From positions 1 through 29,313 of IMG/VR virus record IMGVR_UViG_3300023184_000405: a stretch of DNA of 29,313 nucleotides; one strand, 5' to 3'. This DNA comes from a virus. Shown here piece by piece: positions 15,137 to 27,987 of this stretch (positions within the stretch are counted from its first letter, which is position 1; each line of letters starts with the position of its first letter). The translations under genes were made by a program, and so were the position numbers. The notes beneath the pieces were generated by a model. It ran no database searches and was not told the DNA's origin. It saw only the letters and a list, made by a program, of their open reading frames with translations.

Positions 15137-15330
15137 TGTGGGTGGAGGGAGAAGATTCTGTCTCGTACTTGTCGGGCTTCCTCGACATTGGAAGTCTTGG
15201 TCGAGACACGGACACGCACAGGCTTTAGTGCGGGGTCTTTTACTAGCGTGTAGTTAACCCACCAAACATTCTTGTTCAGCCACAGGTTATGGTTAGGGTT
15301 AGACTTGCACTTGGGTCGGGTAATAATCAT
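15109..15330 (-). CDS. Orphan Arm-type DNA-binding-domain-like protein
   Basis: 73 aa from ATG 15330. The central VWWVNYTLVKDPALKPVRVR followed by VSTKTSNVEEARQVRDRIF resembles the N-terminal Arm-binding domain of tyrosine integrases (strand 'ywvry...g.r.r.Sl.T.d..eAr..r'), but no catalytic domain follows and nothing else in the window looks like an integrase. Cys/His residues (CKSNPNH, HPQC) are also present. Could be a truncated integrase remnant, an excisionase-like protein or a stand-alone DNA binder. It is preceded by the three-way-junction RNA element. Start follows a leader with TTTCCACAA before ATG. Confidence 0.5.
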   Translation of the reverse strand: MIITRPKCKSNPNHNLWLNKNVWWVNYTLVKDPALKPVRVRVSTKTSNVEEARQVRDRIFSLHPQCTKTPKRS

Positions 15331-15345
15331 TTGTGGAAAGATGGA

Positions 15346-15429
15346 GGGCAGGAGTTCACTCGGGTAATGACATGCCAGAAACAACCCGCCTACGCCTTAC
15401 GGAAGTAGGACTCCTGCCCAAATGTCATT
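15346..15429 (-). ncRNA. Predicted structured RNA: three-way junction with possible pseudoknot
   Basis: Given in + coordinates: outer stem GGGCAGGAGT (15346-15355) with ACTCCTGCCC (15410-15419), 10 bp perfect. Hairpin 1: CGGGT (15361-15365) with ACCCG (15384-15388). Hairpin 2: CCTAC (15389-15393) with GTAGG (15405-15409). The three helices abut with no unpaired bases except 5 nt. The hairpin 1 loop AATGACAT (15366-15373) is perfectly complementary to ATGTCATT (15422-15429), so a long-range pairing is possible. It fills the gap between the ERF gene stop and the Arm-like gene. A 12-codon ORF (TAA-ATG junction, 15428 leftward) overlaps it. Could be an mRNA regulatory element, a small RNA or a DNA site. 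Not a known class that I recognise. Confidence 0.5.
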
Positions 15430-16157
15430 TAGAACGGAACATCGTCGGACGACTCCGACTGGCTGTTGTTTTCGGTGCTACCGCCCAGAGCGGACTTGGC
15501 AGCAGACTTTAGGGCAACATCGTTAGCGGAGATGCGGCCATTGTAGGGCTTAGGGGTCCAACCCTTTTCGCCATCGTTGGCAAGCCACTCAACATAACCC
15601 CTGTCCTCTTGGGCTACCTGCGAGATGGACTTGCCCTTATGCTTGCCGAAAGGCACGATTGGGCTCGGACCGCCAGAGGTAGGCTGAGGTGCGGCAGGGC
15701 CGGGAATCCACTTCGTGGTGGACACCTGCGACTGCTGGGGTTGATTGACTGCTACTGAGCGGTGGGAGCGGTCAGTCTCGGCATCGTCATCATCGGTGGC
15801 CACTCCAGCCACAGCCGCCAGTGCGTAGCGACGAAGGTAGGAGAACAGAGAGCCAGCCTGTTGACCATTAAGGTCCTTGGCGTGTAGCAGACATACAGAC
15901 TCAATGCTTTCACCACTTGTGTGAAGGACCGTAGTCTTGATGCCAACTTCATCGCCAGTTCCAATGGGCAACTGGATGATGGCGAGGCCATGCTTGGCGA
16001 AGATAGGCTTCAACGCCTTGAGGTGTGCGGACAGCGAAGCATACCTGCTCTTGTGGAACGGATTGTCGCTATCAGCGTGAACATCCTGCGTCTCGGCAAT
16101 AGCCGCTACGAGTGCTTTGGACAGTAGGGGTTTGAGCCCTTCGGTTTCTTGGTTCAT
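15429..16157 (-). CDS. erf: ERF-family single-strand annealing protein with ExoX-like C-terminal domain
   Basis: 242 aa. Residues ~10-127 match ERF annealing proteins: DVHADSDNPFHKSRYASLSA, an ALKPIFAKHGLAIIQ segment, and the GSLFSYLRRYALAAVAGVAT-DDDDA signature (~102-127). These proteins anneal single strands during phage recombination and genome circularisation. A Pro/Gln/Ser linker is followed by a PFGKHKGKSISQV domain (~169-200), similar to the small ExoX-type C-terminal module found on some ERF proteins. The last residues SSDDVPF copy the SSB C-terminal tip, suggesting a partner-binding tail. CCCCCCACACAC leader precedes the ATG. Exonuclease, RusA and ligase lie in the same operon. Confidence 0.85.
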   Translation of the reverse strand: MNQETEGLKPLLSKALVAAIAETQDVHADSDNPFHKSRYASLSAHLKALKPIFAKHGLAIIQLPIGTGDEVGIKTTVLHTSGESIESVCLLHAKDLNGQQAGSLFSYLRRYALAAVAGVATDDDDAETDRSHRSVAVNQPQQSQVSTTKWIPGPAAPQPTSGGPSPIVPFGKHKGKSISQVAQEDRGYVEWLANDGEKGWTPKPYNGRISANDVALKSAAKSALGGSTENNSQSESSDDVPF

Positions 16158-24618: not shown

Positions 24619-24673
24619 TGTGTTTGTGTGTTAGTGTGCAGGGTTGAGGGCGAAGGCAGAGTGCCTTCACATA

Positions 24674-24730
24674 TACCTTAACCTTACAAAGACCATTATA
24701 CCTTGTAACCAGTGCTTATGTAAATACCTT
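24674..24730. repeat. Short iteron-like ACCTT repeats
   Basis: TACCTT occurs at 24674, 24699 and 24725 and AACCTT at 24680, within an AT-rich stretch that also contains the leftward promoter. Short and few, so the call is weak; they could be operator or replication-initiator binding sites. Confidence 0.3.
24695..24724 (-). promoter_or_regulatory. Sigma70-like promoter for the leftward early operon
   Basis: On the - strand TTTACA (24724-24719), an 18-bp spacer, then TATAAT (24700-24695), a perfect -10 and 5/6 -35. The first gene begins ~70 nt downstream at 24618. It is the best promoter seen in the window and sits in an AT-rich gap between two leftward blocks. Confidence 0.7.
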
Positions 24731-24772
24731 ATTTAAGGAAGTTATTAACAGATTACTTTGGGCACGGGTAGA

Positions 24773-24801
24773 GTTTTACAAGTGTTTTACAAATGTAAAA
24801 C
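24773..24801. promoter_or_regulatory. GTTTTACA operator-like palindrome
   Basis: GTTTTACA occurs at 24773-24780 and 24784-24791, and the second copy pairs with TGTAAAAC to give an 18-bp palindrome 24784-24801 (2-bp centre AA). It lies 50-75 bp upstream of the leftward promoter. A repressor or activator binding site is likely; no binding protein is identified. Confidence 0.5.
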
Positions 24802-24825
24802 ATCACGATGATTGCGAGAAAGGGG

Positions 24826-24890
24826 CAAGAAGGCCAAATCGAAGTCGGGTATGGTATCCTATGGACCGAACCCCGAAAGTGGCCTTCTTG
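24826..24890. other. 65-nt imperfect hairpin in the control region
   Basis: In + coordinates: CAAGAAGGCCA (24826-24836) with TGGCCTTCTTG (24880-24890), 11 bp perfect; inside, TCGGGT (24845-24850) with ACCCCGA (24870-24876) plus one bulge; inner GG-TCC / GGA-CC around TAT. It starts 6 nt after the stop of the gene that precedes it. Candidate terminator for the right-hand leftward block, a regulatory RNA, or an origin-type structure. Confidence 0.5.
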
Positions 24891-24896
24891 AAGGTT

Positions 24897-27667: not shown

Positions 27668-27851
27668 TGTTTGGTGTGGGTGGGTGAAAGCGGGGCTTGA
27701 GTCGGGGTGGTGCGGGGTGAAAGCGGGGCTTGAGCGGGGCAGCGGACGGCAGGGCCCAGCGAGCGGGGCAGAGCCCAGCCCAGCGAGCGGGCGGCGGGCA
27801 GAGCCCAGCGAGCCAGCCAGCCAGCGGGCAGAGCGTGTCTAAAAGCGGGGC
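27668..27851. repeat. GC-rich repeat-filled gap with GCCCCG motifs
   Basis: No gene seen in 184 nt. Two GAAAGCGGGGCTTGAG copies (27686 and 27719) are followed by GC-rich repeats: CCCAGCGAGC at 27755, 27779 and 27804 and GGGCAGAGCCCAGC at 27766 and 27796 (30-bp apart), then (CCAG)n. Probably a run of expanded leader/spacer sequence. Confidence 0.6.
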
Positions 27852-27986
27852 TTAGCGGGGCCAGTCCTGTTCGTCGCCAAAGGCGTAGCAGAGCACGATG
27901 AACAGCACCAGTCCAGCGGCCGCACCGCCAAAGGCGAACAGTGCCGTGTCGTTGGTGAACTCGAAGAAGCAGAGGGTGGGGCTCAT
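27852..27986 (-). CDS. Very small single-pass membrane protein
   Basis: 44 aa from ATG 27986; a longer upstream frame exists but overlaps the preceding gene. MSPTLCFFEFTNDTALFAFG then AAAGLVLFIVLCYAFG is one strong membrane span, with an acidic C-terminus GDEQDWPR. Starts 1 nt after the preceding stop (TAA-C-ATG). The stop TAA is followed by GCCCCGCTTTT. Function unknown. Confidence 0.5.
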   Translation of the reverse strand: MSPTLCFFEFTNDTALFAFGGAAAGLVLFIVLCYAFGDEQDWPR

Positions 27987-27987
27987 G

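Follow-up and report, generated by a model that had tools for sequence, protein, structure and literature searches.

The sequence analyzed here is IMG/VR record IMGVR_UViG_3300023184_000405, from an uncultured phage, and the whole stretch of 29,313 bases is referred to as the window. The first 12.4 kb or so has its genes on the plus strand, and from there to the right end they are on the minus strand. The minus-strand run is mostly tightly packed, with most neighbours overlapping or at most 20 nt apart. Within it, the gene for an ERF single-strand annealing protein and a downstream 73-aa ORF, both on the minus strand, are separated by a gap of 98 nt, and an element at 15346-15429 takes up 84 of these roughly 98 nt (Table 1). 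By a rough gene list, the largest apparent minus-strand gaps are at 27668-27987 (320 nt) and 24619-24896 (278 nt).

The preliminary description of this DNA called the downstream protein Arm-like, a label that finds no backing in Pfam or PHROG, where no family was matched up to E = 10. Its structural model is of low confidence (pLDDT 58), has a beta-beta-beta-alpha order and finds no counterpart among solved structures at E <= 0.001. The start of this ORF (15316-15324) shares a 9-nt direct repeat, TCGGGTAAT, with the element (15360-15368).

Table 1. Features of the ERF locus in the window, with the related loci that carry a tRNA gene after ERF
Feature	Positions	Strand	Evidence or remark
Upstream cistron, encoding the ERF single-strand annealing protein (242 aa)	15429..16157	(-)	Pfam PF04404, E 5e-22; PHROG 2324
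Pseudoknot 5' strand AAUGACAU; opens with the final base of the ERF stop	15422..15429	(-)	Exact complement of 15366-15373; putative pairing
P1 5' arm GGGCAGGAGU	15410..15419	(-)	10/10 pairs with 15346-15355
P2 hairpin CCUAC-UU-CC-GUAA-GG-C-GUAGG, GUAA (GNRA) tetraloop	15389..15409	(-)	Sequence, fold
P3 hairpin CGGGU-(18 nt)-ACCCG	15361..15388	(-)	Sequence, fold
Pseudoknot 3' strand AUGUCAUU; 3' end of P3 loop, abuts P3 3' arm	15366..15373	(-)	Complementarity; loop shuffles
Junction AGUGA, sole unpaired junction segment	15356..15360	(-)	Sequence
P1 3' arm ACUCCUGCCC	15346..15355	(-)	10/10 pairs with 15410-15419
Downstream 73-aa orphan ORF (P0001), start 15 nt past P1	15109..15330	(-)	No family, no homologue
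tRNA gene after ERF in relatives			L006, L007, L013-L019, L066, L067, L076, L081, L082, L084, L100, L106, L107, L111, L113, L114, L118, L120, L121, L125, L126

Read in gene sense, the gap has the order AAUGACAU-UU-P1 (GGGCAGGAGU)-P2-P3-AGUGA-P1' (ACUCCUGCCC), all of it exact in the sequence. The outer stem had been described as perfect over 10 bp and as enclosing two gapless 5-bp hairpins, and this is what we find: all ten P1 pairs are Watson-Crick, and the two hairpin stems (15361-15365/15384-15388 and 15389-15393/15405-15409) abut each other, the second, P2, abutting P1 as well with zero-nt gaps. Written out, P3 consists of CGGGU, a loop formed by UGUUUCUGGC and AUGUCAUU, and ACCCG. The description had further matched an 8-nt hairpin loop to the 8 nt at the ERF stop. 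The complementarity is indeed exact, but the loop is 18 nt long with 8 of them pairing, and the flank starts at the stop while taking only the last base of the stop codon. On the minus strand, which is the gene strand, this flank is located 5' of the fold. Because the 3' strand of the pseudoknot directly adjoins the P3 3' arm and is complementary to the ERF-stop flank, the pseudoknot helix could stack on P3. A 12-codon minus-strand ORF, MTFGQESYFRKA (15428-15390), begins directly past the ERF stop (TAAATG) and crosses P1 and P2.

The GNRA tetraloop in P2 is present only on the minus (coding) strand. When the pseudoknot is left out, an unknotted alternative at -35.3 kcal/mol is about 4 kcal/mol better than the three-way junction at -31.2 kcal/mol. 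With the pseudoknot strands held single, the three-way junction is the minimum free energy structure (-31.2 kcal/mol). The 8-bp pseudoknot duplex contributes -6.8 kcal/mol, and the sum of junction and duplex, which takes the pseudoknot as additive and leaves out loop entropy, beats the unknotted fold.

To gauge how often such a fold arises by chance, we scanned for three-way junctions of any kind in which a loop matches a flank and gave each a total score; the site scores 28. Dinucleotide shuffles of the whole window reached at least 28 in 4 of 1000 cases (0.4 %), and none of the 1000 matched all components. When only the gap was shuffled, not even a score of 26 was reached in 20,000 trials, and an 8-nt match of the loop to either flank occurred in 0.3 % of loop shuffles. 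For comparison, about 600 kb of shuffled phage DNA, read on one strand, contained one score-28 motif. Folding z-scores are -3.6 (minus) and -4.0 (plus) for the bare element, and -3.1 (minus) and -2.6 (plus) with flanks. Since the descriptor was built post hoc and many windows were scanned, the true significance is weaker than these shuffle figures. Taken together, the shuffles and the way in which the fold fills a 98-nt gap among mostly packed genes bear out the earlier view of a non-coding, non-random fold, and the element is probably a real structure rather than chance, though this is not certain.

Further copies of the element were sought widely. Rfam 15 gives no match in the window, the best E values in the region (6.3 and 6.7) being far below the gathering thresholds, and searches of the phage and plasmid records of INPHARED and PLSDB turned up nothing related. 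ERF relatives were collected from IMG/VR, 29 first and 92 loci in total, 38-51 % identical in ERF. The element is absent from all 92 by motif scan, and a single-sequence covariance model run across them gave a best E of 6.9. Even in the nearest relatives found, about 50 % identical in ERF, something else occupies the place after the gene. A genome scan with the ERF alignment yielded three distant loci only, searches via the head protein, the DUF3799 nuclease and the downstream ORF yielded no relatives, and no second site was found in the window.

Scans of IMG/VR by P1-arm pattern and by pseudoknot pattern likewise revealed no similar fold. Seven contigs have the pseudoknot pattern, none with a similar fold. 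Only one contig (L129) shares the P1 arms at a spacing of 40-70 nt, where about one hit is expected by a rough estimate, and it has no pseudoknot, P2 or P3. On its minus strand at 102-198, directly past the stop of a terminase-like gene, that contig carries a 14-15 bp perfect stem with a complex interior and has the arms GGGCAGGAGT/ACTCCTGCCC in common with the element.

The place after ERF is nevertheless far from empty in the relatives. A tRNA gene lies 5-30 nt past the ERF stop in 26 of 74 distinct relatives and is nearly always tRNA-Arg (about 24 of the 26), with tRNA-Thr followed by tRNA-Arg in two or three (L066, L067, L111). The anticodon of the tRNA-Arg is mostly UCU, with CCU in L114. 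The window itself has no tRNA. Two related pairs of loci (L068, L117, L089 and L097) have instead a GC-rich, terminator-like hairpin of 10-12 bp followed by T6-7, and in L006/L012 a hairpin with a T-rich tail (TTTT) stands 3' of the tRNA. In most other relatives the next gene begins within 25 nt of ERF. With these tRNAs and terminator-like hairpins, structured RNA recurs at the place after ERF, which in some phages resembles a transcript end. The place is conserved as a location, not as homologous sequence. We considered homology between P1 and the L089/L097 hairpin (GGGGCAGGA...TCCTGCTCCC) and rejected it, the local alignment score being matched by 88 of 500 shuffles.

One explanation for these observations, and the one that we tentatively prefer, is that the element is an intercistronic RNA structure that forms a boundary for the ERF message, whether for its 3' end, its processing or its stability. 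A stable stem between co-directional genes, which marks intercistronic mRNA-stabilising structures, is found here as the perfect 10-bp P1 in the 98-nt gap. Stem-loops at bacterial mRNA 3' ends and between cistrons protect the RNA upstream of them (PMC8577784 and references therein). We infer that the element is transcribed and folds as drawn with the pseudoknot formed, and, from its position and anatomy, that it acts as such a boundary. The minus-strand transcript would carry a structured RNA between ERF and the next gene, its GC-rich P1 stacking on P2 and being anchored at the ERF stop by the P3-loop pseudoknot. This fold may block 3'-to-5' decay of the ERF message, or set a processing, pause or termination point, and may insulate the small downstream gene. 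The gap-filling fold that exceeds its shuffles, the GNRA loop on the coding strand, the energy sum with the pseudoknot and the relatives' tRNAs and hairpins at the same spot all argue for the boundary; against it stand the single example, the lack of sequence homology at that spot and the unknotted alternative, which is better if the pseudoknot fails to form. The element does not qualify as a standard intrinsic terminator, since P1 is followed by TCCATCTTTCC with no T-run and the minus strand yielded no terminator call.

The strongest competing explanation is a chance or functionless fold in a short GC-rich spacer, picked up by scanning many windows with a motif defined post hoc. The lack of any homologue in Rfam, the phage and plasmid records, the ERF relatives and the IMG/VR patterns favors it, as do the shuffled windows that reach the observed score and its single occurrence in the shuffled phage DNA. 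The complete set of components, seen in no shuffle, the precise placement in the gap and the gap shuffles speak against it, and we regard a chance fold as rather unlikely while taking it seriously.

Two further readings are less likely than the boundary or a chance fold: an RNA that regulates the downstream gene or is bound by ERF, and a DNA site. The element could be a cis-regulatory RNA of the 73-aa gene, ending as it does 15 nt ahead of the downstream ATG; the 12-codon ORF, if translated, would unfold P1 and P2. Alternatively it could be an autoregulatory site bound by ERF, an ssDNA-annealing protein, after the precedent of T4 gene 32, whose product gp32 binds a pseudoknot in its own mRNA (PMC3014915). 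The element is however located 3' of ERF and not in its leader, no competing pairing with the downstream start turned up and conservation is lacking, so that regulation of this kind seems improbable. We are more doubtful still of a cruciform or folded single strand recognized as DNA by a protein such as the downstream protein or ERF. Such a site would be consistent with the strand symmetry of the inverted repeat and with the 9-nt direct repeat (at 15316 and 15360), but the GNRA loop exists on one strand only, the DNA-binding character of the downstream protein is unsupported and the window has no second site.

It is conceivable, as a long shot, that the element represents a new class of phage pseudoknotted three-way-junction RNA that replaces the tRNA or terminator after ERF, for example an ERF-bound RNA or a tRNA-sized decoy. 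A new self-cleaving ribozyme or metabolite-binding RNA is very improbable: the compact pseudoknotted three-way junction would suit one, but it matches none of the known ribozyme or riboswitch models and a conserved core is not derivable from a single case. A decayed or unusual tRNA, brought to mind by the relatives' tRNA-Arg, the similar length (74 nt) and the TCCA past P1, is ruled out by the negative ARAGORN and Rfam tRNA-model results and by global alignments to 14 of the relatives' tRNAs that are no better than shuffles and mostly worse; the T-loop is also missing and P1 has 10 bp. An integron attC site was considered as well, but no GTTRRRY box was seen by eye.

The element may be compared with known systems. 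REP hairpins and the puf stem-loop share with it a strong intercistronic stem just past a stop codon, but they are simple hairpins, whereas this putative stabiliser combines a three-way junction with what may be a pseudoknot. The relatives' tRNA-Arg genes are structured RNAs of similar length at 5-30 nt past the ERF stop, and the element has neither tRNA features nor sequence similarity to them. The T4 gene 32 mRNA also places a phage pseudoknot beside the gene of an ssDNA-acting recombination protein, but there the pseudoknot is simple, sits in the 5' leader and is accompanied by an A+U-rich stretch (PMC3014915), while the element is 3' of its gene. The STAXI motif, a pseudoknot reported near genes for DNA-binding or DNA-handling proteins (PMC2864571), has a similar neighbourhood; it consists mainly of a pseudoknot in two or three repeats, whereas the element is a single copy and has no Rfam match.

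As a single case, with no homologue in which to look for covariation, the element is only a lead, one to follow in deeper metagenomes. If it is real, it extends the known repertoire of simple hairpins between phage genes by a knotted fold, and it does so at the place after ERF that in many related phages is occupied by structured RNA in the form of tRNA-Arg or terminator-like hairpins.
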